60,841 nt of DNA from Sphingobacteriales bacterium. Its GTDB lineage: Bacteria > Bacteroidota > Bacteroidia > Chitinophagales > Chitinophagaceae. The notes beneath the pieces were generated by a model. The model was not told the DNA's origin, ran no database searches, and worked only from the letters and a program-made list of their open reading frames with translations. Both the position numbers and the translations under genes were made by a program. Shown here in pieces: positions 1 through 60,841 of this stretch. Every line of letters starts with the position of its first letter. Position 1 is the stretch's first letter. The DNA lies in contig REAR01000062.1 of NCBI GenBank assembly GCA_004295245.1, positions 1-60,841 of the forward strand. The letters are read 5' to 3'.

Positions 1-175
1 TAAAAAACATTTCTGAAAATCAATTCTTTAGTGTTCAACTTTTTGTATTGTTGTTAGTACAATCTACTATTTGGGAGCTGCTTAACCGGTGGGCCTTAGT
101 ATAGATTACAAGTTACAAGATATGGGTTAAAACAAAAACTGTTTTTTACAGCTGCCCAATGCGTTACCGCTAACA

Positions 176-197
176 GGTGCGACGCAAGAATGCTGCC
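176..197. repeat. Dispersed GTGCGACGCAA repeat, half copy
   Basis: GGTGCGACGCAAGAATGCTGCC is one arm of the window-wide palindromic repeat (full copies at 3763-3800 and 44986-45023). It is followed by the TTACCAGC-type hairpin that flanks several other copies. It lies downstream of the minus-strand gene ending at 258. Confidence 0.8.
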
Positions 198-206
198 ATA
201 ACATAC

Positions 207-235
207 AAAAGCTGGTAACATAATTACCAGCTTTT
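207..235 (-). terminator. Hairpin terminator of the 258-695 gene
   Basis: A 12-bp perfect stem (AAAAGCTGGTAA pairing with TTACCAGCTTTT) around a 5-nt loop sits 23 bases past the stop of the minus-strand gene. The stem ends in T runs on both strands, so it could act in both directions. Confidence 0.6.
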
Positions 236-695: not shown

Positions 696-807
696 ATAAT
701 GTGTTGTTGATGGTGAATGAATGTTGCAAAACTAAGGGCTTATTGCAAACAGCCCATATTTTTGTTTGCAATAAGCCCTCACATCATTTATGTAATACAT
801 CTACTAA

Positions 808-1905: not shown

Positions 1906-2037
1906 TTGAGGTTATTTGGTAAAGGCCGTGGTGGCCATTAAATTGGCCGCAAGCTATTACAATTTGCTCTTACAGGGGCGTAAGAATTGTAAAAATATTG
2001 TCAGCTGCTTTTTAACTGAATCATTTAGTTTTGCTGC

Positions 2038-3051: not shown

Positions 3052-3074
3052 CCCTCATTGTTTAAATTATAATT

Positions 3075-3722
3075 ATGCCCATTGTTGCACCTTCTTTATT
3101 ATCGGCCAATTTTATTAACCTGGCAGCAGATTGTAAAATGCTTAACGATAGCGTGGCCGATTGGTATCACCTGGATGTAATGGACGGCCGCTTTGTACCC
3201 AATATTACATTTGGCCCTATGGTTATAGAGTTTATAAGAAAAGCCACCACAAAAGTATGCGATGTGCATTTGATGATTGAAGAACCGGGGCTTTATACAG
3301 AACAGTTTAAAAAAGCAGGGGCAGATATTTTAACGGTGCACATAGAAGCCTGCACACATTTGCACCGCAATATTCAGCAAATAAAAAGTTTGGGCATGAA
3401 GGCGGGTGTTGCACTAAACCCGCATACTCCGGTGAGCAGTTTAAAAGATATACTGGCCGATATTGATTTGGTATGCCTGATGAGTGTGAACCCTGGTTTT
3501 GGCGGACAAACTTTTATACCACAAACCTTACAACGCATTAAAGAATTGCGCAGTATGATTGACGCGGCACAGCTGCCCACACTAATAGAAATTGATGGCG
3601 GCGTTACACTGCAGAATGCAACAACTATTTTAGATGCCGGTGCACATGTATTAGTAGCCGGCAATACCGTGTTTAAATCGGCCAACCCCACACAAACCAT
3701 TCAGCAGCTAAAAAATTTATAG
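3075..3722 (+). CDS. rpe: Ribulose-phosphate 3-epimerase
   Basis: A 215-residue cytosolic TIM-barrel enzyme that interconverts D-ribulose 5-phosphate and D-xylulose 5-phosphate in the pentose phosphate pathway. All family signatures are visible: SLLSANF at the start, the metal-binding and catalytic stretch YHLDVMDGRFVPN (about residues 32-44), CDVHLMIE (about 66), MSVNPGFGGQ (about 137) and EIDGGV (about 174). The length is normal for the family. It lies 23 bp downstream of the TPR lipoprotein gene, probably in the same operon, and a 38-bp palindrome follows it. Confidence 0.97.
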   Translation: MPIVAPSLLSANFINLAADCKMLNDSVADWYHLDVMDGRFVPNITFGPMVIEFIRKATTKVCDVHLMIEEPGLYTEQFKKAGADILTVHIEACTHLHRNIQQIKSLGMKAGVALNPHTPVSSLKDILADIDLVCLMSVNPGFGGQTFIPQTLQRIKELRSMIDAAQLPTLIEIDGGVTLQNATTILDAGAHVLVAGNTVFKSANPTQTIQQLKNL

Positions 3723-3729
3723 TATTTTT

Positions 3730-3820
3730 TTGTTACCAGCATTGGTACTGCTATTAAACATTGTTGCGTCGCACTCTTCAGCTGAAGGGTGCGACGCAAC
3801 AATGCTGCTTATTGTACTAC
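3730..3820. repeat. Full palindromic copy of the dispersed repeat
   Basis: Positions 3763-3800 form a 38-bp inverted repeat with arms GTTGCGTCGCACTCTTCAG and CTGAAGGGTGCGACGCAAC (one mismatch). It is flanked by TTACCAGCATTGGTA on the left and GCCGGTTACC on the right. It lies between the convergent ends of rpe and the carboxylesterase gene, where a hairpin could stop transcription from both sides (inference). Confidence 0.9.
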
Positions 3821-3833
3821 TGCCGGTTACCCA

Positions 3834-5465
3834 CTATTTCTTATTGCCATAGGCTTTGTCTAAGAAATGGTAGCGGGCATCGTTAGCAGCTTTAATTGCT
3901 TTAGAAGTTACATCTATAACCATTACATCCGGCTGTGCATCTCCGGGTTGCACAGCGGGCCAATTGGGCTGTTTGTTTCCGTTAGGGTTTCCGGTAATAA
4001 TAAAATTGGCAAAATAATTTTGCATGGTGGCAGCAACTTTATAGTCGTCTTCTGTCCATGCATAATCTGTTACCAGGTGTAGGTTGCCCATGCAGTACTC
4101 AATTTCGCAAGCATGCGGTGCACCAATAGGCTCTGGCATTTTAATGGCATTGGCGTCTCTCTTAACGGTGCCACCTGCTAAGCCGGGTGTTAAATTCTGA
4201 TCGGCCAACGGCGGACGTAACTTGCTATATAAATAACGATATACTGGTTGGCTGCTGTTATTAGCATGCAGGTCGGCCCATTTCCAGGTGCTGTAAACAA
4301 TAAACCGGTCTGATGCCAGTGCTGTGGCTGCTACTTCAATATCTTTTGTAGTATCTCCGGGGTAAAGTTTCAATACGGTTTCCCAATTGGTTGGGTATTC
4401 TGCCTTTAATCTTTTCAGATAACTTTCTTTGTTATAAGGCTGGCCTTGCATAAAAGCGCCGCCAGGTATTTCCGCAGAGTTCCATCCCAATAGTAAAGGA
4501 ACCTGTGCTTGTTTTTTTGCTTCAAATATTTCTGGCAGGGTAGCTGTTAAAAAGTAGCCATCAATTACCGTAGGAAAGCCAAAGCGTCTTGATTCGGTAA
4601 AGATTTCAAACAGCTCACGGGTGCTAAGCTTGCGCAGTTCAGCAATTGTTTTGTAACCGGCTTTAGTGGTAAACTCAACACCTGTTTTTTCTGCTTCTGC
4701 CAAGGGTACAGGCGCCATTGTGGGGTTAATACCGCCACCGCTTTCTCCAATAGCGCCGGCAATTAAATTTTTAGAAAGCGGAGAAGCCATGTGCATGCTA
4801 ACAGAAATAGATCCGGCAGACTCGCCGGCAATGGTTACCTTTTTAGGATCTCCACCAAATGCAGCAATATTTTTTTGTACCCATTTTAACCCAGCCTGTT
4901 GATCTAATAAACCATAATTGCCAGAAGCTTTATAAGATGCTTCTTTAGATAGTTCTGGATGTGCTAAAAAACCAAATACGTTTAAGCGATAATTAACAGT
5001 TACCACTACCATTCCTTTTTTTGCCATACTCTCACCATCATAGCGGGGCTCTGCACCATCGCCGGCAGATAAACCACCACCATAGAAGTAAACCAATACC
5101 GGAAGGTTTTTGGTATTTCTTTTCGCAGGTGTCCACACATTCAGGTACAGGCAATCTTCACTCAATCCTTCGCTGCGGCTTTTCATATCGCCAAAGATGA
5201 TGCCTTGCACAGCCCGTGGGCCAAATTTTTTGGTGTGCTTTACACCTTTCCACGCATCTAATGGTTGTGGTGCTCTCCACCGTAAATCGCCTACCGGCGG
5301 TTTTGCAAACGGAACACCAAGGTAAAACTGCATACCTGTTTTAGTATCATAGTTACCTTCTATAACACCGTTTTCAATAGTGGCTTGTACAGCCAAATAA
5401 TTATTGGTTTGTGCCCGGCTGCAAAGGCCGGCAGCAACAAATACAAAAAGAAAAAACTGGCGCAT
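3834..5465 (-). CDS. Secreted type B carboxylesterase
   Basis: A 543-residue alpha/beta hydrolase with an N-terminal signal peptide (about residues 1-19). It carries the oxyanion-hole motif VYFYGGGL and the nucleophile elbow GESAGS (about residue 216). The likely catalytic histidine is in GAPHACEIEY (about 450), and the acid is probably the Glu of GWNSAEIPGG. This is the para-nitrobenzyl esterase/cholinesterase-like family, which hydrolyses carboxylic esters; the natural substrate is unknown. The protein is probably periplasmic. It is divergent from a Nudix-type regulator, with a perfect palindrome between them, so it is probably that regulator's target (inference). Confidence 0.9.
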   Translation of the reverse strand: MRQFFLFVFVAAGLCSRAQTNNYLAVQATIENGVIEGNYDTKTGMQFYLGVPFAKPPVGDLRWRAPQPLDAWKGVKHTKKFGPRAVQGIIFGDMKSRSEGLSEDCLYLNVWTPAKRNTKNLPVLVYFYGGGLSAGDGAEPRYDGESMAKKGMVVVTVNYRLNVFGFLAHPELSKEASYKASGNYGLLDQQAGLKWVQKNIAAFGGDPKKVTIAGESAGSISVSMHMASPLSKNLIAGAIGESGGGINPTMAPVPLAEAEKTGVEFTTKAGYKTIAELRKLSTRELFEIFTESRRFGFPTVIDGYFLTATLPEIFEAKKQAQVPLLLGWNSAEIPGGAFMQGQPYNKESYLKRLKAEYPTNWETVLKLYPGDTTKDIEVAATALASDRFIVYSTWKWADLHANNSSQPVYRYLYSKLRPPLADQNLTPGLAGGTVKRDANAIKMPEPIGAPHACEIEYCMGNLHLVTDYAWTEDDYKVAATMQNYFANFIITGNPNGNKQPNWPAVQPGDAQPDVMVIDVTSKAIKAANDARYHFLDKAYGNKK

Positions 5466-8129: not shown

Positions 8130-8465
8130 GTATTAAAGTAGAATTTTTTTACTCATGCGCTTTCCAAAGGAGAGCTATAACTAAACAAATTTATACAAAT
8201 GTGCCTTTCAAAAAATAATCGTTTATAATTTACTGGTACAGTTGTTAACCAGCAGTTGTTTTCCATGGCGGCACCCTTGCGTCGCACCAGTTAACTGAAG
8301 CGCTTTTGGCATCAATGTTTTTTTAGCAGGCTCGGAGACTGTATATACAGGCTTACCCTTAAATTTTACAGGGTGGGCATGGCTTGCTTGCACGGTTGTT
8401 ATATAACTTCCATCTTCAGGCTATATACTTTAGCCTGCCAGCTACCAATTTTGTATTTTTATTGT
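8130..8465. other. Intergenic stretch with repeat copy
   Basis: This 336-bp gap lies between divergent genes. The only recognisable element is the dispersed repeat at 8272-8312. A reading frame starting at 8373 runs into the YceI gene, but its first 31 residues look like non-coding sequence. Confidence 0.6.
8272..8312. repeat. Dispersed TTGCGTCGCAC repeat, half copy
   Basis: CCTTGCGTCGCACCAGTTAA plus CTGAAGCGC is a half copy of the window-wide repeat. It is preceded by GGTACAGTTGTTAACCAGCAG, similar to the TTACCAGC flank seen beside other copies. Confidence 0.75.
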
Positions 8466-11928: not shown

Positions 11929-11959
11929 CAGCTAAACTGCTGCCTGTGGTTATACAGTA

Positions 11960-12000
11960 GAAAGGATTGCGACGCAACGATGTTGCTCGTAGCGGCAAAA
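11960..12000. repeat. Dispersed GCGACGCAAC repeat, half copy
   Basis: GATTGCGACGCAACGATGTT plus GCTCGTAGCGG is a half copy of the window-wide repeat, followed by AAAAGCTGGTA. It separates the kinase and response-regulator genes. Confidence 0.7.
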
Positions 12001-12032
12001 GCTGGTATAAAAAAGAAACAGAACTTTATTAT

Positions 12033-12797: not shown

Positions 12798-12905
12798 AAT
12801 AACAGCTGTTTGCAGGCTCAGCTATCAAATGTGCAGGTTCAGCGGTTTTATAAACCTGTTTTTTGAGTTTAGCACTATTTTTAATTGTATAAATACCAGT
12901 ACAAA

Positions 12906-13322: not shown

Positions 13323-13327
13323 ACAAC

Positions 13328-14017: not shown

Positions 14018-14044
14018 TTACCCAGTATTGAGGCCCAACAGTAG

Positions 14045-14095
14045 CGGTTATGGCAACATCGTTGCGTCGCACACTTCAACTGTTGTGCAAAAAAG
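14045..14095. repeat. Dispersed TTGCGTCGCAC repeat, half copy
   Basis: TATGGCAACATCGTTGCGTC continuing GCACACTTCAACTGTTG is a half copy with the same GGCAACATC lead as the copy at 28556. It sits inside the five-gene cytochrome/YceI run. Confidence 0.8.
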
Positions 14096-14173
14096 CAACA
14101 AACCCTAAAAACAAAGTACCCTGTTTTAAAAGCAAACAGAATTATTACCTAGTAAAATGTAAATACGTTTCAG

Positions 14174-16705: not shown

Positions 16706-16835
16706 ACGAACTTCAGGCTGTGTTGCATGCTAATATACCGTGCTGCTTGTATGTGTTTATTAATTTAATTTGGCAAAAGCTTCGTACAGGGCAGCATGAA
16801 GTATATATGCCGCTTGCTTACAATAGCGGTAAAGT

Positions 16836-16863
16836 TGAATGGTGCGACGCAAGGATGTTGCCA
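16836..16863. repeat. Dispersed GTGCGACGCAA repeat, half copy
   Basis: GAATGGTGCGACGCAAGGAT then GTTGCC is a half copy of the window-wide repeat, 34 bases upstream of the CYTH gene start. Confidence 0.8.
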
Positions 16864-16896
16864 TGAAATACAAATGCCGACTTACAAATAATTACT

Positions 16897-17421: not shown

Positions 17422-19342
17422 TAACAGTGCCGCTTTGTTTTACTATTTCCTGTTCCAGCTGTTTTAAATGCTGGTGTGTTTGCATATATACAAATTGCTC
17501 TTCTGCATTAGTTGATTTTTCAAGGTCTTGCTGATTTTGAATAATCATTCTTTTAATTTTCCTGAGTTTAAGATAACTGGCAGTAGATTTCACTTCTTCG
17601 CGGTAAACTTGCTCTCTTGTTATTACCGGCATTTCAAATTCTGTTTTCCATTTTTCACTTAACTCATACGGAAAATCCATAATAGAAACAACCAAGGTGC
17701 TGAGTGCCTGATCTTCGTGGTAAAGAAAGTTTTTTGCGGTAGGCTCAATACCTGCTTCATACCAAGTTTTGTAAGTGGTAATAATATGTAACAGTTGCTT
17801 ATTATCAAAAAAGTCTTCCTCAATCAGGTGTTCAAACATATAGCTGGCAATGGTATGGTCTTCATCCCATGGCTTTAACCCAAATTCTAATAAAGCTCTT
17901 ACTACGGCTCTTTCTTGTAATTCATCTGCAAATAAGAGATTGATAGAGTCTTCATCTAGTAATGGTGGCTGATCTGTTGCGCCTACTTCTTGTTCTGCGG
18001 CTGATGTTTGTTTAGCCTCCGTCTTGCTTACTTTTTCTCTTATAAATTTATTTACAAGCGCATTTAATCCTGTTTCATCAATTTTTAATAACTCAGAACA
18101 TTTGCGAATGTAATCTTGCTGTTTAGTGAAATCTTCCGCTTTATTAATTTTAGAAATGGTTTCAGCGACCTGGTTAACAACGGTGGCTTTTTTTTGAGAA
18201 TCTTGACCGGCGTCTTTTAAGGCTACTTCTAATTGAAAAAGGATAAAATCTTTTTTGTTAGCGGCAATAAACTCTCTGAAAGCAGCCGCACCAACCTTGT
18301 TTACATAGCTATCCGGATCTTCTTTGTCTGGTATTAAAACCAGTTTTACATTTAGTCCTTCTTCCAGCGCCATATCCAACCCACGTAATGCGGCTTTAAT
18401 ACCTGCATTATCGCCATCGTAAATAATAGTTAGGTTATTGCTATATTTTTTTATTAATCGTAACTGATCTTGTGTTAGAGAGGTTCCTCCGCTGGCAACT
18501 ACATTTTCAATACCTGCCTGGTGCAGCGAAATAACGTCGGTATAACCTTCCACTAAAAGACATTCATCATTTTTATCAATAGCTTGCCGGGCAAAATAAG
18601 TGCCGTAAAGTATTTTACTTTTTACGTACAGTTCATTTTCAGGCGTATTGATATACTTGGGTGCTTTGTCGTTATTTTTAATAAGACGTGCGCCAAAACC
18701 AATAATTTTTCCGCTATTATTATGCACAGGAAAAATAATACGTCCGCGATAATTATCTACCAACTCATCATTTCGTAAAACTACAGTACCTGTTTTTAGT
18801 AAATTTTCCTGACCAAACTGATTTTTTAAAGCGGCAGTGGCGAAGCTGTTTCTATCTTGCGGGTTGTATCCTAATTGAAATTTTTCAATAATTTCTTCTC
18901 TGAAGCCGCGATGTTTTAAATAGCTCAAAGCAATATCAGTACCTTCTTCTGTTTGTAACAATTGCTGGCTAAAAAATTTTTGTGCAAAGGAATTGATGAT
19001 GTATAAACTATCTGCAACCTGTTGCTGTGCTTTTAACTCTGGTGCCAGTTCTGTTTCTTCTATGGTTACGTTATACTTGTTGGCTAACCAACGTAATGCT
19101 TCTGCATAACTGTATTTTTCATGCTCCATTATGAAGCTGATGGTATTACCGCTTTTTCCGCATCCAAAGCACTTGTATATTTCTTTGGCAGGGCTTACTG
19201 TAAATGATGGAGATTTCTCATTATGAAAAGGGCATAGTCCTAAATAGTTGGTTCCCCGTTTTTTAAGCTTTATAAAACTACCCACTATTTCGATAATATC
19301 GATCCGGCTTAGTATTTGTTGTATGGTCTGCTGACTGATCAA
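17411..19342 (-). CDS. dnaG: DNA primase
   Basis: A 643-residue replication primase that makes RNA primers at the fork. The CHC2 zinc finger has Cys37, His40, Cys58 and Cys61 (LCPFHNEK, YKCFGCG). The catalytic RNAP-core/TOPRIM region shows LLVEGYTDVISLH (about 255) and the metal-binding IIYDGDNAGIKAA (about 306). The C-terminal part after about 430 is the variable helicase-binding region. The length is typical. It is convergent with the CYTH gene, with an 11-bp overlap at the stop codons. Confidence 0.97.
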   Translation of the reverse strand: MISQQTIQQILSRIDIIEIVGSFIKLKKRGTNYLGLCPFHNEKSPSFTVSPAKEIYKCFGCGKSGNTISFIMEHEKYSYAEALRWLANKYNVTIEETELAPELKAQQQVADSLYIINSFAQKFFSQQLLQTEEGTDIALSYLKHRGFREEIIEKFQLGYNPQDRNSFATAALKNQFGQENLLKTGTVVLRNDELVDNYRGRIIFPVHNNSGKIIGFGARLIKNNDKAPKYINTPENELYVKSKILYGTYFARQAIDKNDECLLVEGYTDVISLHQAGIENVVASGGTSLTQDQLRLIKKYSNNLTIIYDGDNAGIKAALRGLDMALEEGLNVKLVLIPDKEDPDSYVNKVGAAAFREFIAANKKDFILFQLEVALKDAGQDSQKKATVVNQVAETISKINKAEDFTKQQDYIRKCSELLKIDETGLNALVNKFIREKVSKTEAKQTSAAEQEVGATDQPPLLDEDSINLLFADELQERAVVRALLEFGLKPWDEDHTIASYMFEHLIEEDFFDNKQLLHIITTYKTWYEAGIEPTAKNFLYHEDQALSTLVVSIMDFPYELSEKWKTEFEMPVITREQVYREEVKSTASYLKLRKIKRMIIQNQQDLEKSTNAEEQFVYMQTHQHLKQLEQEIVKQSGTVIIR

Positions 19343-19488
19343 GGTATAGTTGAGATAAGTGGGGCAAATTACTGAATATGTTGCTAAGAAAGTATGGTTA
19401 AACCTGTAATTGTTTTTCCTTATTGCACTGCTGAATCCTTTCTTATATCTTGATGACAGTCAAAATCCAAAAATCCTAAAATCATCCT

Positions 19489-22424: not shown

Positions 22425-22454
22425 AAAAAAGAGCCTTTTGTAAGGCTCTTTTTT
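22425..22454 (+). terminator. Terminator of the PKD protein gene
   Basis: A perfect 13-bp stem (AAAAAAGAGCCTT with AAGGCTCTTTTTT) around TTGT, followed by more T. It ends 50 bases past the stop codon. Confidence 0.9.
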
Positions 22455-22483
22455 ATTTTGATACTGGCTTTAGAATATTAATT

Positions 22484-22530
22484 GGGCATTGTTGCGTCGC
22501 ACACTGCAACGCCAGTAACAATATTGAACA
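22484..22530. repeat. Dispersed TTGCGTCGCAC repeat, half copy
   Basis: GGGCATTGTTGCGTCGCACA then CTGCAACGCCAGTAACAA is a half copy lying between the convergent ends of the PKD gene and the rhodanese-thioredoxin gene. Confidence 0.8.
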
Positions 22531-23230: not shown

Positions 23231-23385
23231 GGTGCGTAGCTATTTTGTACAAAGATATCTATGGCTATAATATAAAACAGCTACTTCTTTTGTTAAAGAT
23301 TTGTATTGGTGCTCAATATAGATATGCCTTTGAACCGAGCGTGGCAAGAATGTTTAACCGGAGCGTTGGCGCTGGTTACCAAATT

Positions 23386-23661
23386 TTATTCTTCGTCTCC
23401 TTCGTCTTCTTCATATTTATATTCATCTTCATTGTAATAATATTTCTTCCAGTCTTTTACTTTATCATCATCTATCAGTTCAAGAATATCAAATATGGCA
23501 TCTCCTTTTTTTTTCCACTCCATACGTTCACGGTCTTCAAAGCGGGTAATGCTCATGCAATGGTCTGTATCTAAATTAACCCTGATGAGGGTGATGGAAC
23601 TGTTCTCTTTCTCTTGAATGAGATAATAACATCCGGTTTCTAATAACGCATACGAATACAT
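23386..23661 (-). CDS. Small acidic hypothetical protein
   Basis: A 91-residue protein without signal peptide or membrane helix. A beta-rich N-terminal part (YALLETGCYYLIQEKENSSI) leads into an amphipathic helix and an extremely acidic tail (YNEDEYKYEEDEGDEE). The clean start and ordered composition favour a real gene, but it could not be assigned to a family. A poly-acidic C-terminus is common in small regulators and chaperone-like proteins; nothing else supports that. Confidence 0.55.
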   Translation of the reverse strand: MYSYALLETGCYYLIQEKENSSITLIRVNLDTDHCMSITRFEDRERMEWKKKGDAIFDILELIDDDKVKDWKKYYYNEDEYKYEEDEGDEE

Positions 23662-28501: not shown

Positions 28502-28540
28502 AGCGCATACTTTTGTATGCGCTTTTCTTTTTTTTTGAAA
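28502..28540 (+). terminator. smc terminator
   Basis: A 9-bp stem (AGCGCATAC with GTATGCGCT) around TTTT is followed by a long T-rich run. Confidence 0.9.
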
Positions 28541-28620
28541 CCAGCATTGGTAAGTATGGCAACATCGTTGCGTCGCACCTTTGTAGCTACAGTGCATTGA
28601 GGAGCCGATTGAGTAATGCT
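28541..28620. repeat. Long half copy of the dispersed repeat
   Basis: CCAGCATTGGTAA, then GGCAACATCGTTGCGTCGCA, then CATTGAGGAGC...TAATGCT. This is the most complete example of the left flank, core and right tail in one half-type copy. Confidence 0.8.
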
Positions 28621-29321: not shown

Positions 29322-29329
29322 TAATGCAT

Positions 29330-29395
29330 TGCCCATTGTTTGATGCTGTTGAAGTGTGCGACGCAACGATGCTGCATTGAATTACCAAAGCTGGT
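29330..29395. repeat. Dispersed GTGCGACGCAAC repeat, half copy
   Basis: GTTGAAGTGTGCGACGCAAC then GATGCTGCATTG is a half copy, followed by ACCAAAGCTGGTAAT. It lies between the convergent DUF486 and hppA genes. Confidence 0.8.
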
Positions 29396-29414
29396 AATCT
29401 TAAAATACCGGGCA

Positions 29415-31915: not shown

Positions 31916-32342
31916 TTAATTCTCTGTGTGTTTAAATTAAGGAGGGCAAAAATAGGGCAAAAACCCCTTAATTCACAGTATAGTGCCTTTTTTTTAAACA
32001 GGTTTTATGCCCTCATTTTCAACAGCTAATGATTGTTTTTCTTTCTTTGTTTTAGTTATCACATACTCATTTGCAAAAAAGAGATATTTAATTCACCAGC
32101 TTTTTGATTGATAATTGATCATCGTTGCGACGCTCCGTTCAACTATAGTACAGGTATGCAGCGCCCTTGCTTTAGAAAAATTTGCAATTGCGGTTACCTG
32201 CATTTTCAGACTATTTTTTTGCATGCATCTGCTTACTTATTGCAAGAGTTTGCCAATGTATTGACAGTTGGAATGCTTTAACTATTTGTTATGCTGCTAT
32301 GGCATATGCTTTGGCATCTCTAATAAAAAGGAGGATTATACC
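31916..32342. other. Intergenic with degenerate repeat and a rare strong RBS
   Basis: This 427-bp gap between hppA and the DUF4476 gene holds a decayed repeat copy (32112-32145, ATCGTTGCGACGCTCCGTTC) and an AAGGAGG site at 32329-32335. No other element was seen. Confidence 0.5.
32329..32335 (+). promoter_or_regulatory. Strong Shine-Dalgarno site for the DUF4476 gene
   Basis: AAGGAGG ends 7 nt before the ATG at 32343, which decides the start against an in-frame extension to 32268. Such perfect sites are unusual in Bacteroidota, whose ribosomes mostly ignore them. Confidence 0.7.
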
Positions 32343-36167: not shown

Positions 36168-36239
36168 TTGCCTTTTTTGTGTTGCAAAGAAAACCAAAAA
36201 CAGTATTGCTTGCTTAAATAAAATATGCCCAAAATGGTA

Positions 36240-36270
36240 TTGCTGCTGAAGAGTGCGACGCAACCGGAGT
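36240..36270. repeat. Dispersed GTGCGACGCAAC repeat, half copy
   Basis: GCTGAAGAGTGCGACGCAAC then CGGAG is a half copy matching the right arm of the full palindromes. It lies just upstream of the DUF445 gene. Confidence 0.8.
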
Positions 36271-36373
36271 TAAATAGCAATACCCATGCTGGCAACACAA
36301 AAAACATTATTTAAAACAATGGGGTTGTTTTTTTGTGCGAACTGCATTTTCTATTATTTTTGCCGACCAAACG

Positions 36374-36447
36374 GTAGCCATAGCTCAGTTGGTTAGAGCA
36401 TCAGATTGTGGTTCTGAGGGTCGTGGGTTCGAGCCCCATTGGTTACC
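36374..36447 (+). tRNA. tRNA-His (anticodon GUG)
   Basis: A full cloverleaf is visible. The acceptor stem is GTAGCCA/TGGTTAC with one G-U pair, the D arm is GCTC...GAGC, and the anticodon stem TCAGA/TCTGA holds loop TTGTGGT with GTG at 36408-36410. The T arm is GTGGG TTCGAGC CCCAT. G at 36373 can serve as the G-1 that is special to tRNA-His, pairing with C at 36447. The CCA end is not fully encoded (CCAA follows), so it must be completed by the tRNA nucleotidyltransferase. A hairpin terminator follows directly. Confidence 0.97.
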
Positions 36448-38752: not shown

Positions 38753-38784
38753 CAAAACCCAACCATTGGTTGGGTTTTGTTTTT
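38753..38784 (+). terminator. prc terminator
   Basis: A 12-bp stem (CAAAACCCAACC with GGTTGGGTTTTG) around ATT, then TTTTT. Confidence 0.92.
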
Positions 38785-38810
38785 GTAGCCAACTGCAAAA
38801 CTTTAATCAG

Positions 38811-38880
38811 CTCCGGTTGCGTCGCACACTTTAGCTGTATCGCTATGAGGAACTAGCAAGAGTATGCTACATGCCGCAAT
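38811..38880. repeat. Dispersed TTGCGTCGCAC repeat, long half copy
   Basis: CTCCGGTTGCGTCGCACACT, then TTAGCTGTATCGC, then ATGAGGAAC...GTATGCT. The tail matches the GAGGAGC...ATGCT tail of the 28541-28620 copy. It lies between the convergent prc and DinB genes. Confidence 0.8.
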
Positions 38881-41220: not shown

Positions 41221-41545
41221 ACTTTTTGTTTTTGTTGAATTTATTGTTAGAACCATTGTACTTTTTTACTGACCGGTACTTGCTGCCACCGGCACTGCTG
41301 TTAACTGGTGCGACGCAACGGCTGCTGCGATACTTGCTGCTGTTGGTAACACCTAAATACTATCTGGACAATCTCTCAAAAATCTGTAATAGTTATAATA
41401 AACGCTAACCGTTTGTATAAAATTATGTAACAGCCCGCTTGTGATTAGGTAAACTTTTAACAAGGACTGCTGCTATTTTGTATAGATGCAATTATTGCCA
41501 GCATTAGCAGCATAGCCACTATATTTTATGAATCTGTTAAGACCT
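41221..41545. other. Intergenic stretch with repeat copy
   Basis: This 325-bp gap between the S8 and aldehyde dehydrogenase genes (same strand) contains the repeat at 41288-41335. No terminator or other gene was recognised. Confidence 0.6.
41288..41335. repeat. Dispersed GTGCGACGCAAC repeat, half copy
   Basis: TGTTAACTGGTGCGACGCAA then CGGCTGCTGCG is a half copy; the GTTAACTGG lead mirrors the 8272-8312 copy. Confidence 0.8.
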
Positions 41546-44915: not shown

Positions 44916-44954
44916 GGCATAAAGTTTACTTAAAAATACAGTTTAAATATTTGT

Positions 44955-45055
44955 GTTACCAGCTATCGGTTTTCATGGCGTCATCGTTGCGTCGCACCCT
45001 TCAGCTGAAGGGTGCGACGCAACAGCTGTTGCTATAAGCACTACAGCTGGCTACC
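44955..45055. repeat. Full palindromic copy of the dispersed repeat (type copy)
   Basis: Positions 44986-45023 form a perfect 38-bp palindrome with arms GTTGCGTCGCACCCTTCAG and CTGAAGGGTGCGACGCAAC. The outer flanks are GTTACCAGCTATCGG on the left and ACTACAGCTGGCTACC on the right, themselves roughly inverted. This is the best copy for defining the family. Confidence 0.95.
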
Positions 45056-45057
45056 AA

Positions 45058-45783
45058 CTAAAATTTTAAATAATAAGGCTGCAGCAACTGTATAAACGCA
45101 GGGGTATAATGATTGTTTTTTACAAAAATGCTCAATTCCTCTATTGGGTAAGTAGCCAATTGTTGACGTTGCAATAAAACTATTGATCTGAAAAAAGCGT
45201 GTGTGGTGCTTTGCCGTACCTGCAACCAATGTGCAGGATATAAATTATACACCGCTGCCTGTGTTAAAAGATAATTGCTGCGGTGCCAGGGCAATAATAA
45301 TATGAGTGCCCCTTTTTCATTTAATTTTTTATCTGCTATGGCCAGCAAGTCATCCAGCCGCAAACTATCATCGTGCTTGGCTTTGTTTTTAATAGGGTCG
45401 GCCGATTTTAAATCTCCTTCAAAAAAAGGTGGATTACTAATAATGCAATCGTATGTTTTAGTATTGTCAAATAATTTTATATCACCGTAATGTAAATGCA
45501 AGCGGTCTTTCCACGGGCTGCTGTTAATATTTTCAATGGCCTGTTCGTAGCTGTTATAATCCACTTCAATACCATCTATGGTGCCATTGTATTGTTGTGC
45601 CACCAGCAACATTAATAAGCCGGTGCCGGCGCCAATATCCAGCACATTACTATAATCAAATTCTTTTTGTTGCAGGTAATGTGCCGCCCATGCACCCAGC
45701 AGGCAGCTATCGGTACTTACTTTTAAAGTACTACGGTCGTGGTAAATAGTAAACTGTTTAAACTGAAAATATGGGTTAGGCAT
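45058..45783 (-). CDS. trmN6: tRNA1(Val) A37 N6-methyltransferase
   Basis: A 241-residue SAM-dependent methyltransferase of the YfiC/TrmN6 type, which methylates adenine 37 of valine tRNA. The N-terminal signature is FKQFTIYHDRSTLKVSTDSCLLGAW, with SAM motif I VLDIGAGTGLLMLL (about 47-60) and the catalytic NPPF in CIISNPPFFEGD (about 116-119). It lies 34 bp downstream of tsaD, another tRNA-modification gene, on the same strand. Start and length are as in the family. Confidence 0.93.
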   Translation of the reverse strand: MPNPYFQFKQFTIYHDRSTLKVSTDSCLLGAWAAHYLQQKEFDYSNVLDIGAGTGLLMLLVAQQYNGTIDGIEVDYNSYEQAIENINSSPWKDRLHLHYGDIKLFDNTKTYDCIISNPPFFEGDLKSADPIKNKAKHDDSLRLDDLLAIADKKLNEKGALILLLPWHRSNYLLTQAAVYNLYPAHWLQVRQSTTHAFFRSIVLLQRQQLATYPIEELSIFVKNNHYTPAFIQLLQPYYLKF

Positions 45784-46892: not shown

Positions 46893-48134
46893 TTACTTAC
46901 TGCGTATGGCCACCACCGGATCCATTCTTGCAGCTATAATAGCTGGTATAATACCCGCCAGAATACCAATGGTTACACAAATACCAATGGCCAATGATAG
47001 AATTCTAAGTGAAATGGTTACTTCAAAACCAATGGCCGGAGATATGGCCTTGGTTAAAATAAATACCAGCAACAAACCTATTAATCCGCCAATAATACAA
47101 AGTATGGCCGACTCTAAAAGAAACTCAGTTATAATACTGGTTTTAGTGGCGCCAATAGCTTTCTTTAAGCCTATCTGTGGGGTACGTTCTCGCACCGTAA
47201 CAAACATAATATTAGCCACGCCAAACAAACCTACCAATAAAGAAAGGGCTGCAATAAACCAACCGCCCAAGTTAACATTAGAAAATATACCCGACATAAA
47301 TTCTCCAAACGCTTCAATATCGTTCAGGCTAAAATTATCGGCCTGTGTTGGTTTTATTTTTCTAATAGAACGCATGGCACCCTGCACATCTTCCTTCAAT
47401 GCTTTCATAGGTATATTCTCTGGGCCCTGCACCATTAAAACTGGTTGTGCGTAATCTTCTTTAACCAGTGTTCTTAAAAAACCATAGGTCATTAAAATAC
47501 ATTCGTCAAAATCCCAGCCACCCATCATGCTTTGGCCTTGTTTTTTAATAATGCCAATAATATTTGCCTTGCCCCCTAAAAATTCAACTTGTTGGCTCAA
47601 CGCTTTATCAGCACGGCCAAATAGTTTTTCGGCAATATTGTAGCCAATAACAATATTGTTTGCTGCATTGTCATAATCGCTTTGTATTAGGTAGCGGCCA
47701 CCTTCTACATCTAATTTCTGAATATTAGAAAAGTCTTCTGTAATACCATATGTATTTACATTGCTTACTGCCTCGTTGCCCCATTCTATGGTACTGTTGG
47801 TGCTAATATTAAACGCCACATTGGTAGCCATGCCGCTGCGTTGTTTCAGCATACGGGCTTCTTCATACTTTGGTACGGGGCGGTTAATTAATTTCCACCA
47901 GGGTTGTTCGCCGGTATAATCCCATTTGTCAATATAAATAGTTTTGCTACCCAGTTTTTTAATATCGTTTTGCACGTTGCGTTCAAGGCTATCCACAGTG
48001 CTAAGCACACCAATAATGCAAAAAATGCCCACAATAATTCCAAACATACTAAGGCCGGTACGCATTTTATTATACCTAAATTCTTGTAAGGCCATTTTTA
48101 AGCTGCTCCAAACTATTTCAATGTATTTTGACAT
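46893..48134 (-). CDS. MacB/FtsX-type ABC transporter permease
   Basis: A 413-residue inner-membrane protein starting at 48134 (MSKYIEIVWSSLKMALQEFRYNKMRTGLSMFGIIVGI); the longer open frame to 48359 covers a repeat and is not coding-like. One N-terminal helix is followed by a large periplasmic MacB core domain (about 45-270) and three C-terminal FtsX helices (about 285-405). MacB-type permeases drive mechanotransmission with a separate ATPase. No ATPase or MFP gene is adjacent, which is unusual. It precedes tsaD on the same strand, 40 bp away. Confidence 0.9.
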   Translation of the reverse strand: MSKYIEIVWSSLKMALQEFRYNKMRTGLSMFGIIVGIFCIIGVLSTVDSLERNVQNDIKKLGSKTIYIDKWDYTGEQPWWKLINRPVPKYEEARMLKQRSGMATNVAFNISTNSTIEWGNEAVSNVNTYGITEDFSNIQKLDVEGGRYLIQSDYDNAANNIVIGYNIAEKLFGRADKALSQQVEFLGGKANIIGIIKKQGQSMMGGWDFDECILMTYGFLRTLVKEDYAQPVLMVQGPENIPMKALKEDVQGAMRSIRKIKPTQADNFSLNDIEAFGEFMSGIFSNVNLGGWFIAALSLLVGLFGVANIMFVTVRERTPQIGLKKAIGATKTSIITEFLLESAILCIIGGLIGLLLVFILTKAISPAIGFEVTISLRILSLAIGICVTIGILAGIIPAIIAARMDPVVAIRSK

Positions 48135-48234
48135 GGTATCAAAAATACAGCAACCATTCAATACCCAGCACTTAATTCTATTAATGGCTGCTTTATAGGG
48201 TAAGTGGCTATTGCAGGGGCCGGCAGTTGCGCAG

Positions 48235-48270
48235 GGCTCAGCAGTTCTTGCGTCGCACCCTTCAACAGCA
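48235..48270. repeat. Dispersed TTGCGTCGCAC repeat, half copy
   Basis: CAGTTCTTGCGTCGCACCCT then TCAACAGCAATGC is a half copy between the divergent permease and coiled-coil genes. Confidence 0.8.
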
Positions 48271-48426
48271 ATGCAATACCCGGCAGGTTTAAAAACATTT
48301 TTTGCACAGGGCAGGTTTTGTTTAAAAACAGTTGTAAATTGTATACAGCTCTTACCCATCTATCCGCACCGGGAAAATCAGGAAGAAGTAAATCATCAAT
48401 TGTTTCATCCTTAAAATTTTATTCCC

Positions 48427-48801: not shown

Positions 48802-48914
48802 CCTTTTTTGTTGATCAGGTATTGAAAAAATATTTACTGCTGCTTAAAAATAGCAGTAACGGCTATTACAGCTTAGTAACGTTTTTAACGTTTTGCCGCC
48901 CCGGCTGCAAGTAG

Positions 48915-48950
48915 CACTGCAGCACAAGTGAGTGACACAACGATGCCTGG
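48915..48950. repeat. Degenerate copy of the dispersed repeat
   Basis: GCAGCACAAGTGAGTGACAC then AACGATGCCTGG resembles AGTGCGACGCAACGATGCTG with several changes. It lies upstream of the EF-G paralog. Confidence 0.45.
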
Positions 48951-49031
48951 CTTTATTCTATCGTCTGTTCAATACTGTACATAACAACTACGGATTGTTT
49001 GCAATTTTTTTTAACTACTAAATTTTTTGTT

Positions 49032-52117: not shown

Positions 52118-53443
52118 TTACTTAAGGGTGTTTTTATAAATTACACCATCTTTTATAATAAGCATAAAATTTTTATTATAATCTACCATCACTTTAATGT
52201 CTTTAAGTGGGTTGCCGTCAACCAAAAGCACATCTGCATAAGCGCCTTCTTCAATTACACCCAGTTTGCCTTCTCTGTATGGGCTTCTGTTGCCCGAAAG
52301 CGCAAGTAGTTGCGCATTGTCTGATGTAATAAGTTTTAGCACTTCAAAAGGTGTAAACCAATTACCCATTTTCGCAATGTAGGTGTTTTGATCTTTATTA
52401 ACAGGAGGGTTAAAAAACACATCAGTACCCCAAGCCATTTTTACATTATATTTTTTTGCCAACTTTATTACAGCATCAGCACCATTTGCAACATCTCTCC
52501 TTTGTTGTTTCTGTTCTGCTGAAAAATCTGGCCTACCAGCTGTATCCAATGCCTGAATACTTAGCCATACCTTTTTTTCGCCCATTAATTTTACTGTAGC
52601 TTCATCCAATAACTGTCCATGCTCAATGCATTTTACACCTGCCGCAATAGCTTTATTTACTGCTCTTGAGGTAAAGGCATGTACTGTTACATATGTCCCC
52701 CAATCAGCGGCAGCTTCTACGGCAGCATGTATTTCTTCTTCTGTATACTGACTTACATCAATTGGGTCGTAAACTGAGGAAATGCCTCCACCCGCTGTAA
52801 GTTTTATATGTGAAGCACCTCTTTTTAATGTTTCTCTTACTGCAACCAGCACCGCATCTTTTCCATCGGCAATAAGGCAGGCATCAATAACTTCAGAATG
52901 ATCCAAAGCTCCGCCCAAAGAAACTGGTCTTTGATTAATATTTCTAAAATCACCATGCCCTGATGTTTGTGAAATCATTGGACCGCTAGGCCAAATTCTT
53001 GGCCCGGATATTACCCCCGCATCGATAGTTTGTTTCAAGCCAAAACTTGGGCCTCCAAAGTCTCTTACAGAGGTAAAGCCACGTAGTAAAACATTTCCAG
53101 CCTCCTGTCCTGCACGAATAAAAGCAGCTCCAATTTCGCCCGTCTGCATTTGCGTTAGTGTTGAACTGGCTAATATCATGTGCATGTGTACATCAATTAA
53201 TCCAGGCATTAAAAATTTACCCTTACCATCAATAATTTTTGTATTGCTGGTTTTATCAGTTGCTATAGAAGTGGTAGAAATTTTTTGAATTAGATTGTTT
53301 ACTATAAGTACATTGCCAGTAATGGTTTTTTCATCTTTACCATTAAAAATCTGCACATTATTAATAAGCAGGGCAGATTGAGAAAATAGAGATAGGCTGC
53401 TGCAGGTAACTAAGCCTGCAAAGATGAATTTCAATGCTTTCAT
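52118..53443 (-). CDS. Secreted amidohydrolase 1 (imidazolonepropionase-like)
   Basis: A 441-residue exported metal hydrolase with a signal peptide (about 1-21). The amidohydrolase signatures are complete: HMH in GLIDVHMHM (about 85-90), the candidate carboxylated Lys in ASHIKLTAGGG (about 213), His in VTVHAFT (about 251) and CIEHGQLL (about 274), and the metal Asp in AWGTDVFF (about 345). This family removes C-terminal or N-acyl groups from dipeptides or hydrolyses cyclic amides; the substrate here is unknown. It is the downstream member of a tandem pair with the 53780 gene; the two proteins agree over nearly their whole length. Confidence 0.9.
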   Translation of the reverse strand: MKALKFIFAGLVTCSSLSLFSQSALLINNVQIFNGKDEKTITGNVLIVNNLIQKISTTSIATDKTSNTKIIDGKGKFLMPGLIDVHMHMILASSTLTQMQTGEIGAAFIRAGQEAGNVLLRGFTSVRDFGGPSFGLKQTIDAGVISGPRIWPSGPMISQTSGHGDFRNINQRPVSLGGALDHSEVIDACLIADGKDAVLVAVRETLKRGASHIKLTAGGGISSVYDPIDVSQYTEEEIHAAVEAAADWGTYVTVHAFTSRAVNKAIAAGVKCIEHGQLLDEATVKLMGEKKVWLSIQALDTAGRPDFSAEQKQQRRDVANGADAVIKLAKKYNVKMAWGTDVFFNPPVNKDQNTYIAKMGNWFTPFEVLKLITSDNAQLLALSGNRSPYREGKLGVIEEGAYADVLLVDGNPLKDIKVMVDYNKNFMLIIKDGVIYKNTLK

Positions 53444-53779: not shown

Positions 53780-55105
53780 TTATTTAATTGTGTTTTTAAA
53801 AACCACACCATTTTTTACAATCAATACAAAATTTTTGGTATAATCTTCCATCACACTTAAATCTTTCATTGGGTTACCATCAATTAAAATAACATCTGCA
53901 TAAGCACCCACTTCAATCACACCCAGTTTGCCTTCGCGGTAAGGACTACGTTTCCCAGAAAGAGCCAGCAATTCTCCGTTATTAGACGTAATCATTTTTA
54001 ATACTTCAAAATTACTAAACCATTTACCCATTAAAGGAATAGTACCGGTTTGTCTTTTATTAGCACCAGGGTCAAATAAAAGATCGGTACCCCAGGCTAG
54101 TTTTAAATTATATTTTTTAACGGAAGAATAAATGCGATTGGTGCCGTTAGCTACATCGTATTTTTTTTGTTTTTGCTCTGCGTTTGAAGTAGCTCTTACG
54201 CTGCTGTCCAATGGTTGCATACTTAACCAAATTCCTTTTTCTCCAATCAGCTTTAGGGTTGCTTCATCCAGTAAATGGCCATGATCAATACATTTAACAC
54301 CTGCTTCAATAGATTTTTGTACGGCCCTTGGTGTATAAGCATGTACTGCCACATAGGTACCCCAGTCTTCAGCCGCTTCTACGGCAGCTCTTAATTCTTC
54401 CAAAGTAAATTGGCTAACATCTAACGGATCAAAAACAGATGATACCCCACCACCTGCGGTTAATTTAATTTGTGAGGCACCGCGTTTCAGGTTTTCTCTT
54501 ACTGCAACCAGCACAGCATCCTTGCCATCAGCAATAGTAGCGCCACCAATATTTTCAGAATGATGCATTGTGCCGCCCAAAGTAACAGGACGTTCATTTA
54601 CGTTTCTAAAATCGCCGTGGCCAGAGGTTTGAGAAATAATAGACCCACTTGGCCATATACGGGGGCCGGCTACCACCCCTTCATCAATGGCTTTTTTTAA
54701 ACCAAAAGCAGGGCCTCCTAAATCTCTAACGGAGGTAAAGCCACGCATCAACGTATTGGCTGCTTCATCGCCGGCTTTTATAAAAGCATAACCTGGCTCT
54801 CCATCCATTAGGTCTTCTAATGTATTTGCCGTCATAATTGCATGCCAGTGCGCATCAATAAGACCCGGCATTAAAAATTTCCCCTTGCCATCTATAATTT
54901 TTGTATTACCACTTTTATCGGTGGCAATGGGTGCTGTAGAAATTTTCTGAATCAGGTTATTTACAATAAGCACATTGCCGGTAATAATTTTTTCATCCTT
55001 ACCATTAAAAATCTGCACATTGTTAATAAGCAGGGTTGACTGTGAAAAAACAGTCAGGCTAAAGCAGGATACTATACCTGCAAAAAATAATTTCAACGCT
55101 TTCAT
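53780..55105 (-). CDS. Secreted amidohydrolase 2 (tandem paralog)
   Basis: A 441-residue exported amidohydrolase, the same length as the 52118 product and largely identical to it. The metal site reads HWH in GLIDAHWHAIM where copy 1 has HMH. The Lys in ASQIKLTAGGG, His in VAVHAYT and CIDHGHLL and Asp in AWGTDLLFD are kept. The differences concentrate around the HxH loop and the segment at about 95-105, near where substrate is bound in this family, which suggests the copies have diverged in specificity (inference). It has its own terminator and the 20-bp upstream box. Confidence 0.9.
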   Translation of the reverse strand: MKALKLFFAGIVSCFSLTVFSQSTLLINNVQIFNGKDEKIITGNVLIVNNLIQKISTAPIATDKSGNTKIIDGKGKFLMPGLIDAHWHAIMTANTLEDLMDGEPGYAFIKAGDEAANTLMRGFTSVRDLGGPAFGLKKAIDEGVVAGPRIWPSGSIISQTSGHGDFRNVNERPVTLGGTMHHSENIGGATIADGKDAVLVAVRENLKRGASQIKLTAGGGVSSVFDPLDVSQFTLEELRAAVEAAEDWGTYVAVHAYTPRAVQKSIEAGVKCIDHGHLLDEATLKLIGEKGIWLSMQPLDSSVRATSNAEQKQKKYDVANGTNRIYSSVKKYNLKLAWGTDLLFDPGANKRQTGTIPLMGKWFSNFEVLKMITSNNGELLALSGKRSPYREGKLGVIEVGAYADVILIDGNPMKDLSVMEDYTKNFVLIVKNGVVFKNTIK

Positions 55106-57294: not shown

Positions 57295-58623
57295 TTACCG
57301 TAAGGTGTTTTTATATACCACACCATCCTTCATGATAATTAGAAAGTTTTTATCAGGATTTGCAATCAGGTTAATATTTTCCAGCGGATTGCCATCCACA
57401 AGAATGAGATCAGCATAAGCACCCTCTTCAATGACACCCAGTTTTTTTGGATAGGGGTTACGAGGGCCACTTAAAGCCAGTAACTCAGCATTTTTAGCTG
57501 TAGCCATGTTCAGCACTTCAAATGTGGTATACCAACGCACCATTTTTGCTAATTGCGCACCCTGTCTTGTTGCCAGGTTGGCATCAAACAAACAATCGGT
57601 TCCAAATGCTGTTTTAATATTGTATTTTTTTGCCAGTTGGTAGGCATTATCCGTTCCTTGAACCATTTGTAATTGTTTTTTTCTAGAATCAGACCCCGCC
57701 GGAAAAGGGATGGCATCCTCATCGTCTAAGAATGGCTGCAGACTCCACCATATTCCTTTTTCTGCCATTAGTTTTGCTGAAGCGTCATCGGCCAATTGTC
57801 CGTGCTCAATACATTTCACTCCTGCTTTGATAGCCGCCTGAATAGCGGTTGGTGTGTATGCGTGTACCGTTACATAAGTATTCCATGCCGCCGCTGCTTT
57901 TACGGCAGCAGCAATTTCGTCTTCTGTATATTGAGCAACATCCAGCGGATCATAGTTAGATGCAACCCCGCCTCCTGCCATTATTTTTATTTGTGAAGCA
58001 CCATTACGTAATTGTTCACGGGTACGCAATAAAACCTGGTCGGGCCCATCTGCAATTATCGTCATTCCTGTTCTTTCAAGGTAGGAGAGCTGGCCAGATA
58101 CTTTTGGTACATCAGTAGGCATTCCAAAATCTCCATGTCCGCCTGTTTGAGAAATGGTGGCTCCACTCGGGTAAATACGTGGTCCTTTTATCATCCCCTG
58201 GTCAATAGCTTTTTTTAAACTAAAACTGGCGCCGCCCACATCTCTTACTGAGGTAAAGCCCCGCATCAGTTGTTTTTCTGCAGAGCTTGCTGCAAATAAG
58301 TTAAGGTAACCAATATCACTTACCAAAGCAAGGGGTAATGCTATTGCATCCATTGTGGTATGGGCATGTGCATCAATCAGACCGGGCATTAAGAATTTGC
58401 CTTTACCATCAATGATAGTTGTGTTGGCACTTTTGTTTATTGGTATTGGGGTGGCAGCTATTTTAGTTATTTGGTTACCGGTAACAAGTACATTGCCCAA
58501 AAACGGTTTATTATCTTTTCCATTAAAAATAAGAACATTGGTAAATAACGAAGTTTGCTGCGCAGTAGTTAAAACAGCTATCAACATCAATAATCCTGTT
58601 ACAGCATATTTTATTTTCATCAT
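57295..58623 (-). CDS. Secreted amidohydrolase 3
   Basis: A 442-residue exported amidohydrolase related to copies 1 and 2 but more diverged. A signal peptide (1-21) is followed by HAH in GLIDAHAHTTM (about 83-88), Lys in ASQIKIMAGGG (about 209), His in VTVHAYT and CIEHGQL, and Asp in AFGTDCLF (about 342). All metal ligands are kept, so it should be active. The substrate is unknown. It starts 48 bp after the end of the YtcJ-like gene on the same strand, so the two probably form an operon with a promoter upstream of 60399. Confidence 0.9.
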   Translation of the reverse strand: MMKIKYAVTGLLMLIAVLTTAQQTSLFTNVLIFNGKDNKPFLGNVLVTGNQITKIAATPIPINKSANTTIIDGKGKFLMPGLIDAHAHTTMDAIALPLALVSDIGYLNLFAASSAEKQLMRGFTSVRDVGGASFSLKKAIDQGMIKGPRIYPSGATISQTGGHGDFGMPTDVPKVSGQLSYLERTGMTIIADGPDQVLLRTREQLRNGASQIKIMAGGGVASNYDPLDVAQYTEDEIAAAVKAAAAWNTYVTVHAYTPTAIQAAIKAGVKCIEHGQLADDASAKLMAEKGIWWSLQPFLDDEDAIPFPAGSDSRKKQLQMVQGTDNAYQLAKKYNIKTAFGTDCLFDANLATRQGAQLAKMVRWYTTFEVLNMATAKNAELLALSGPRNPYPKKLGVIEEGAYADLILVDGNPLENINLIANPDKNFLIIMKDGVVYKNTLR

Positions 58624-60399: not shown

Positions 60400-60841
60400 T
60401 TTTTATGATTGATTTAAATGTTAATAGTTTTTTATTAAAAATATAGGTGGCATTTTTTAGCAGGCTTATAAAACCAATTTTTTTTGCAATTAAAAGAACG
60501 GATTCTTCTAATATCAATACTGAAACTAAATTAATTAAGTCACACAAATATTAAATAATAGGCAAATAAAAAACAGAGTCGAACTAACTCTACAATTTAT
60601 AGCCCCTTGTTTAATAAAAATTTCATTTAGGTACTCAAACGCTAATCAATCAAAAATTCAGGGTAGCTATAGTATTTGCAGCAGCAAAAAAAATTAAAGT
60701 ACAAGCCATTGTTCGCCAGCAATTGTATTGCATAGCAACTGCTGTTGCGTCGCACCTTTCAGCGGCAACGCTTTGAGGGGCGAGTAGCTGTTGCACTGCA
60801 TTCAGGTTTTAGCGGCCCTTGTGCGGAATACTATATTCAGC
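60400..60841. other. Intergenic up to the window end
   Basis: This 442-bp stretch is AT-rich upstream of the YtcJ-like gene, where its promoter must lie. CGAACTAACTCTACAATTTA at about 60580 loosely resembles the 20-bp amidohydrolase box but in the opposite orientation. A repeat copy is at 60735-60800. The next gene lies beyond the window. Confidence 0.55.
60735..60800. repeat. Dispersed TTGCGTCGCAC repeat, long half copy
   Basis: CAACTGCTGTTGCGTCGCAC, then CTTTCAGCGGCAACGC, then TTTGAGGGGCGAGTAGC. The tail matches the TTGAGGAGC...tail of the copy at 28541-28620. Confidence 0.8.

Follow-up and report, generated by a model that had tools for sequence, protein, structure and literature searches.

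The window analysed here, a stretch of 60,841 nucleotides that makes up contig C28 (REAR01000062.1) of the draft genome of a bacterium of the Chitinophagaceae, carries members of a real and large family of dispersed repeats, which is undescribed in the literature that was searched. The text search with TTGCGTCGCA, TGCGACGCAA and topic words, which covered only a minority of subscription journals and preprints and the results of which were judged by titles and the beginnings of abstracts, returned no description of the family. The 11-letter core of the repeat, TTGCGTCGCAC (hereafter core A), has 16 exact matches in the window, where 0.01 are expected from 100 shuffles. Genome-wide (3,371,011 bases in 269 contigs), there are 955 copies, compared with 2 for the reversed-letter control, and the two strands are balanced (474 forward, 481 reverse). 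The initial annotation had described a REP- or MITE-like dispersed family, far denser than chance, in both orientations and with flanks common to the copies beyond the core. Each of these points was borne out, as the copies sampled share a loose frame of 75-80 bp, and the 11-mer is not at background frequency outside the window. We give an about even chance to the reading that this is an old mobile repeat, the core of which is kept by a putative binding protein.

The elements of the window are listed in Table 1, where the bounds of each are those of the conserved frame, from -42 to +37, laid on the core. The positions given by the initial annotation match those found to within about 10 bases, and its estimate of about 20 copies is right because the related cores at 48930-48940, 32125-32135 and 23337-23347 bring the total to 20 cores at 18 places. 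When one mismatch to TTGCGTCGCAC is allowed, the window has 18 matches, including the copy at 11967 and a match at 20561. The latter, which lies inside the PKD-repeat gene 19489-22404 and has no element flanks, was taken as a chance match. This gene, on the forward strand, encodes a protein of 971 aa that combines a Por secretion tail with five PKD domains, encoded by 465-bp repeats. The claim that every copy lies between genes holds for most copies, while some are inside mechanically called ORFs (11967, 36253, 48248, the pair 44987/45012 and the C-like core at 23337). At 11967, 36253 and 48248, the 5' tip of the ORF crosses the element, and these three copies are most likely intergenic because the first Pfam domain begins only downstream of this tip, from residue 25, 44 and 101, respectively. 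The pair 44987/45012 overlaps a called ORF of 117 aa that has no Pfam match, and the core at 23337 falls within a called ORF of 109 aa. The right arm of this pair adjoins the stop codon of a methyltransferase-like gene, 45058-45783 on the reverse strand. The window also contains a tRNA gene at 36374-36447 (+), 111 bases from the core at 36253-36263, and three adjacent paralogues on the reverse strand (52118-53443, 53780-55105 and 57295-58623), the DNA blocks of which are 65-81% alike and the first of which matches Amidohydro_1.

Table 1 Repeat elements of the window, with bounds given by the conserved frame.
Element	Bounds	Strand	Core(s) and remarks
Single element	150..229	-	core A 177-187
Inward pair	3722..3841	.	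cores A 3764-3774 (+) and A 3789-3799 (-); 14-bp palindromic middle
Single element	8235..8314	+	core A 8277-8287
Single element	11940..12019	-	one-mismatch core TTGCGTCGCAA 11967-11977
Single element	14020..14099	+	core A 14062-14072; behind + ORF ending at 14017
Single element	16815..16894	-	core A 16842-16852
Single element	22450..22529	+	core A 22492-22502
Single element, C-type core	23310..23389	-	TTGCCACGCTC 23337-23347; flank-only profile 16.9 bits
Single element	28526..28605	+	core A 28568-28578; preceded by hairpin and T-run (sequence inspection)
Single element	29329..29408	-	core A 29356-29366
Single element, C-like core	32083..32162	+	TTGCGACGCTC 32125-32135; flank-only profile 21.0 bits
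Single element	36226..36305	-	core A 36253-36263
Single element	38775..38854	+	core A 38817-38827; preceded by terminator-like hairpin and T-run (sequence inspection)
Single element	41281..41360	-	core A 41308-41318
Inward pair	44945..45064	.	cores A 44987-44997 (+) and A 45012-45022 (-)
Single element	48206..48285	+	core A 48248-48258; in over-extended 5' tip of MacB/FtsX-like ORF 46893-48359 (-)
Single element, core B	48903..48982	-	TTGTGTCACTC 48930-48940; flank-only profile 25.8 bits
Single element	60703..60782	+	core A 60745-60755

Frame and placement were analysed in a sample of about 336 kb, composed of the window and further stretches and corresponding to about a tenth of the genome. 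The 75-80 bp frame around the core was found in 101 copies. Its left part comprises a T-run at -41 to -33, a box near CC[A/C][A/G]GC at about -28 to -24 and weak preferences at -9 to -1. The right part consists of [A/C]CTT[C/G][A/T][A/G]C, directly after the core, and a weak box at +32 to +36. Across the columns of the frame, information peaks at the T-run, the CC box, the core, the CTT..C segment and the AGC box. The core can be described as a 9-bp dyad with a central T. The same frame also holds two other cores, B (TTGTGTCACTC) and C (TTGC[T/C/G]ACGCTC, generalised as TTGC[N]ACGCTC). A flank-only profile, built from exact-A copies with the core left out, finds 88 A cores at 20 bits or more, together with 3 cores of one mismatch, 2 of two, 9 of three and 2 of more mismatches; the nine three-mismatch cores are six exact B and three exact C cores, and the Markov control gives 0 matches at this score. 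From A to B, the pair C3:G7 is switched to T3:A7, so that the dyad is kept, and at one homologous site B occupies the place of A. In a few copies (L062:13780, L064:2420 and L064:4185), a short palindrome, TCCCGAAACTTCGGGA or one much like it, takes the place of the bases immediately preceding the core. A variant ending in TTGCGTCGCAATCC.TTC in place of TTGCGTCGCAC.CTT is seen at L131:737, at L131:19424 and at 11967 of the window, and at one site it is present in three congeners. One reading frame of the element is codon-like (LRRTL[QV]); inspection showed in-frame stops flanking the core in several copies, and a coding role was rejected.

The core occurs in 261 of the 394 genomes of the family that were scanned, and in 23 of them it reaches 100 copies or more, with a maximum of 2,170. 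The distribution among congeners is patchy. In the genus of the window, G025 has 3 cores and G122 has 1 (both genomes are 85% complete); elsewhere, G373 has 1 core compared with 77-629 in its congeners, and G003 has none compared with 385 in G103. In a set of 57 genomes, a longer B pattern, TTGTGTCACTCACTT, is common in most of the A-richest genomes and reaches 801 copies in G141, while genomes with 50-90 A copies have 0-58 of B. Three genomes (G104, G015 and G204) have one B each and no A. Neither B nor C is strictly tied to A-carrying genomes. For C, the longer pattern reaches high numbers only in G299 (91) and in the genome of the window (36), followed by G327 (19) and G172 (11). The pattern of an A-B pair with a middle of 20-45 bp occurs in 32 stretches of the GTDB collection, all of them in records titled Segetibacter, Limnovirga or Chitinophagaceae bacterium. 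Two segments of locus L123 of G141, 725-3371 and 11376-14356, are 83-86% identical to another genus (the first to G207 and G149, the second to G207), whereas at 18085-19997 of the same locus the congener G058 shows 75-77% identity. To judge from these identities, the two blocks were likely acquired by horizontal transfer, with the elements carried along. The genes in the shared blocks are those of cytochrome c/PQQ and molybdopterin enzymes. Integron-like cassettes were considered, as these blocks end near cores, and were rejected, since cores occur throughout and the gene content is unremarkable. Furthermore, record DGQT01000040.1 (L194, L198 and L207) has tandem permease-like genes of about 800 aa, which are duplicates and presumably of the FtsX/MacB family, and many of them are followed by an element pair.

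To follow single sites, three of four 20-kb stretches of G070 were compared with the congener G149, in which 24 of their 27 cores could be placed. A core of type A, B or C in the same orientation lies within 200 bp in G149 at 16 of these 24 sites, compared with a fraction of 0.10 when positions are drawn at random. The type differs at three of the 16 (B to A, A to C and A to B). The core at L131:16954, counted as absent when compared with one locus, does have its counterpart at another G149 locus. A search within 100 bp that required no core gave 14 exact consensus cores, one TTGCCACGCTC and one TTGCGTCGCAA. Two further sites have decayed cores, with 1 and 2 mismatches, and the remaining 6 have 3-4 mismatches, which is the random level, found in 424 of 500 random stretches. 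The 24 sites thus sum to 16 with an intact core, 2 with a decayed core and 6 with none: a site in the congener mostly either keeps its core whole or has lost it, and half-decayed cores are few. Because the A-to-A pairs have a core identity of 99% by construction, this value carries no evidential weight. In the 13 A-to-A pairs, the ungapped identity of the flank blocks is 28-48%, compared with 27-47% for unrelated copies within G070, for which the block limits differ slightly; the outermost left block has 37% and 29%, respectively. At the single site that was compared in detail, L142 near 5500, where G141 and G207 have an A-B pair, G149 has, as judged by eye, a degenerate element with the C-type core TTGCCACGCTC on the other strand, and not a clean empty site.

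The core is seldom altered while its surroundings vary, which suggests that a protein reads the core. The family is an interspersed, intergenic repeat of the Chitinophagaceae that behaves like REPs and REPINs, reaches hundreds to thousands of copies in some lineages and is placed preferentially behind the 3' ends of genes and away from divergent promoters, singly or as inward pairs. In the reading as an old mobile repeat, which we favour, its copies would have arisen by a transposition-like process. The core, of 11-19 bp, would be the contact site of a putative sequence-specific DNA-binding protein, and the core types may be alternative alleles of this contact.

A purely selfish mobile repeat, the young copies of which are constantly re-inserted behind genes by a putative transposase, so that intact cores reflect fast turnover, is a possible explanation that we consider unlikely. 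It agrees with the patchiness among congeners, with the REPIN-like inward pairs and with the presence of the core, together with CTTGTAC, in 21 stretches of 17 viral contigs. It also agrees with orthologous flanks that are about as unlike as those of unrelated copies, at sites that are intact or gone. Moreover, gene-end occupancy alone nearly accounts for the retention: 13 of 31 G149 gene ends carry an element generally, over which 16 of 24 is a modest excess (p = 0.013), and re-insertion at the same gene ends could therefore also explain the retained sites. However, young copies of one master should share their flanks, and for blocks of the frame, with the core and the 8 bases after it left out, the within-genome similarity is 0.34-0.53, compared with a background of 0.27-0.29. 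Left and right flank similarities between copies hardly correlate (a weak r = 0.08 in the genome of the window, and r = 0.07 for the far flanks in G141), which does not fit the recent spread of sub-families.

Furthermore, the selfish repeat lacks a candidate transposase, both in searches for Y1 proteins and among the 13 ORFs, out of 107 in 66 intervals between inward cores, that were run against Pfam. The initial annotation had proposed a mover of the RAYT/IS200 type, and this proposal did not hold. One Y1_Tnp gene was found in the genome of the window, which is 96% complete, so that a gene could be missed. Its product is IS200/IS605-like (69.8 bits, cut-off 55) and scores 37.4 bits with NCBIfam REP_Tyr_transpos (cut-off 80). 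It bears the Y..Q..HH signature, which belongs to subclass 1.2, listed in the accessible part of the source as having no REPs (PMC6006769). In a profile search of 17 genomes, 14 had a Y1 match at E <= 0.01, and none was found in G024 (263 copies), G072 (101 copies) or the element-poor G025. G141, which is complete in one contig and has 1,690 copies, has only a sub-threshold Y1 fragment of 72 aa. When Y1 loci were taken from both element-rich and element-poor genomes, 3 of 30, the locus of the window's own genome included, had an A or B core within 300 bp of the match, and at a local density of 0.23 cores per kb several of the 30 would be near a core by chance. Homologues of the Y1 protein (BLAST, E <= 1e-10) occur in 17 of the 22 other genomes with at least 100 copies and in 202 of the 371 remaining genomes; at this threshold none was found in G141, G327, G024, G248 and G072. 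This weak excess is outweighed by the fragment in G141 and by the few Y1 loci near a core, and the RAYT/IS200 link was rejected. In the sampled tenth of the genome, neither an autonomous copy nor a trans-acting protein was found.

The placement of the copies relative to genes is not random. Called ORFs cover 86% of the sampled sequence, and 4 of 103 cores lie inside ATG-started ORFs of at least 90 aa, of which three are no more than about 110 nt from the ORF start (e.g. 48248). When GTG and TTG starts are allowed, the number is 18 of 96, and 15 of these again lie that close to the called start. Few single copies are in divergent spacers, which hold 5 of 54 of them but make up 40 of 183 spacers, and many are in convergent ones, with 16 of the 54 copies in 34 of the 183 spacers. 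A same-strand stop codon is located 30-49 nt before the core, which is the left edge of the element, in 33 of 103 copies, and toward the right edge in 7. In co-directional spacers, the sense preference of single copies is weak (18 in the same sense, 15 antisense). Inward A-A pairs, with middles of 14-146 bp, hold 40 of the 109 copies sampled from the genome of the window, and the other 69 are unpaired. In samples of five genomes, all 44 pairs of neighbouring cores within 300 bp of each other face inward. In the genome of the window, 9 such pairs are found between co-directional, 7 between convergent and 3 between divergent genes, and since they occur in all three types of spacer, the pair is one unit and not two separate gene ends. 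By eye, the middles form recurring classes (CACAATACAAATAAACATTTTAGTGGCA... and AAGTCCG-rich inverted stretches, e.g. at L071:2940, at L075:11255 and in several unpaired copies), as if they were repeat families themselves. At L205 (JANXWM010000116.1), an A-B pair appears by eye to lie in a near-perfect palindrome that reaches past the element on both sides, as if produced by inverted duplication.

Such placement invites the explanation that the element is a host-made functional site at the ends of transcription units, used by a nucleoid protein or as a roadblock or insulator, which was never mobile. This we consider improbable. Few decayed cores, the avoidance of genes and divergent spacers and the adjoining stop codons are in its favour, but about 1,000 sites of such information content would hardly arise from point mutation, the pairs are units also between co-directional genes, and whole congeners are almost without the element.

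The description of the repeat as palindromic is correct for two loci of the window (3764/3789 and 44987/45012), which are true inverted pairs; the unpaired copies have no hairpin beyond chance. For four genomes, with 68, 41, 27 and 12 unpaired copies, folding over the frame was compared with dinucleotide shuffles; the copies show no advantage, and some segments fold worse. In the genome of the window, a downstream control segment folds slightly better than shuffles. Tests of column pairs for stem-like covariation in the frame revealed no stem, as the column pairs above expectation (z up to 7.7) do not, as judged by eye, stack into one. A candidate TTGC...GYAR stem was dropped, since it pairs merely as its columns predict. 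The core dyad, of 9 bp with a central T, cannot close as a hairpin. With no fold, and with the dyad kept from A to B, the evidence therefore points to a protein on double-stranded DNA, and selection on such binding, and not on RNA structure, would be what keeps the core.

A transcription terminator or an RNA element of the 3'-UTR, the former also put forward by the initial annotation, is for these reasons very improbable. A third of the sampled copies lie directly behind a stop codon and the left edge has a T-run, as this explanation would have it. However, the T-run precedes the core and the inverted pair on the 5' side, and does not stand 3' of the hairpin as in an intrinsic terminator, and an Rfam search of the window at gathering scores found only a tRNA. 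Copies tight behind a stop codon have no terminator hairpin ahead of them, while remoter copies often have one; the folding energy ahead of the copies, minus that of shuffles, is -0.4 kcal/mol close to the stop and -4.5 kcal/mol further off in this genome. Intrinsic terminators are about equally common at its gene ends with (18 of 59) and without (23 of 106) the element. As ends that bear the element are not depleted in terminators, the idea that it replaces them was rejected as well; in small samples of 8-44 gene ends, no surplus of terminators was seen in element-poor or element-free genomes.

A DNA uptake sequence for natural transformation is highly unlikely: although the richest genomes have about 1,000-2,500 copies, in equal orientations, with inverted pairs and alternative core types, and genera that both carry the element have 83-86% identical gene blocks in common, the cores are nearly confined to the spaces between genes, the frame extends over 75-80 bp, and one-mismatch cores are few in the sample (16, ten of them TTGCGTCGCAA, compared with 103 exact cores and with 6 in the reversed control).

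Beyond the old mobile repeat with a protein-bound core, a wider and rather doubtful proposal can be made. The elements may constitute a lineage-specific, genome-wide DNA address system, in which a putative protein family would read the constant core, with its interchangeable alleles, and would mark the boundaries of transcription units or organise the nucleoid; the sites, about 1,000-2,500 per genome and most of them at the ends of genes, would have spread by transposition and then been domesticated. REP-like repeats are usually explained as hairpins moved by RAYTs, and here is a family of such size without a link to RAYTs, the single copies of which have no hairpin and the core of which is mostly intact or gone although orthologous flanks are as unlike as those of unrelated copies. 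The old question of whether such repeats serve the host becomes directly testable through what binds the core.

Structural comparison with known repeats shows likenesses to several of them. MITEs are short, non-coding and have inverted ends. The repeat is likewise short and non-coding, with inverted ends in the paired form; it differs in that no parent transposon was found among the 13 of 107 ORFs run against Pfam and in that most sampled copies (69 of 109) are unpaired. The uptake sequences of Neisseria and Haemophilus have a short constant core in about 1,000 copies, in both orientations, with inverted pairs and dialects, and are common inside genes. The repeat has a similar core, copy number, distribution over both strands and inverted pairs, and several core types, but it is nearly absent from genes and has a long composite frame and few one-mismatch copies. 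As described in the accessible part of the source, REPs are intergenic, lie near the 3' ends of ORFs, form dimers, and have high copy numbers that are uneven between species, and those of the CGTC type are reported also from Bacteroidetes, without a dedicated transposase (PMC3733652, Di Nocera et al. 2013). The repeat shares with the GTAG and CGTC REPs of that account its high copy number, intergenic 3'-end placement, dimers and uneven spread, and with CGTC REPs the lack of a dedicated transposase. However, its unpaired copies are not stem-loops and its column profile has no GTAG tag; CGTC lies within the core (positions 3-6), with no stem of 8-9 bp behind it. As the defining stem-loop and tags are absent, it is not filed as a REP. 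Compared with REPINs, as far as the accessible part of PMC3116915 describes them, it has inward pairs with variable middles, in addition to singles, as a population in one genome; unlike REPINs, it has no RAYT association, a core far more constant than its flanks and several interchangeable core types. The repeat thus resembles REPs and REPINs in placement and pairing and is not a member of either.
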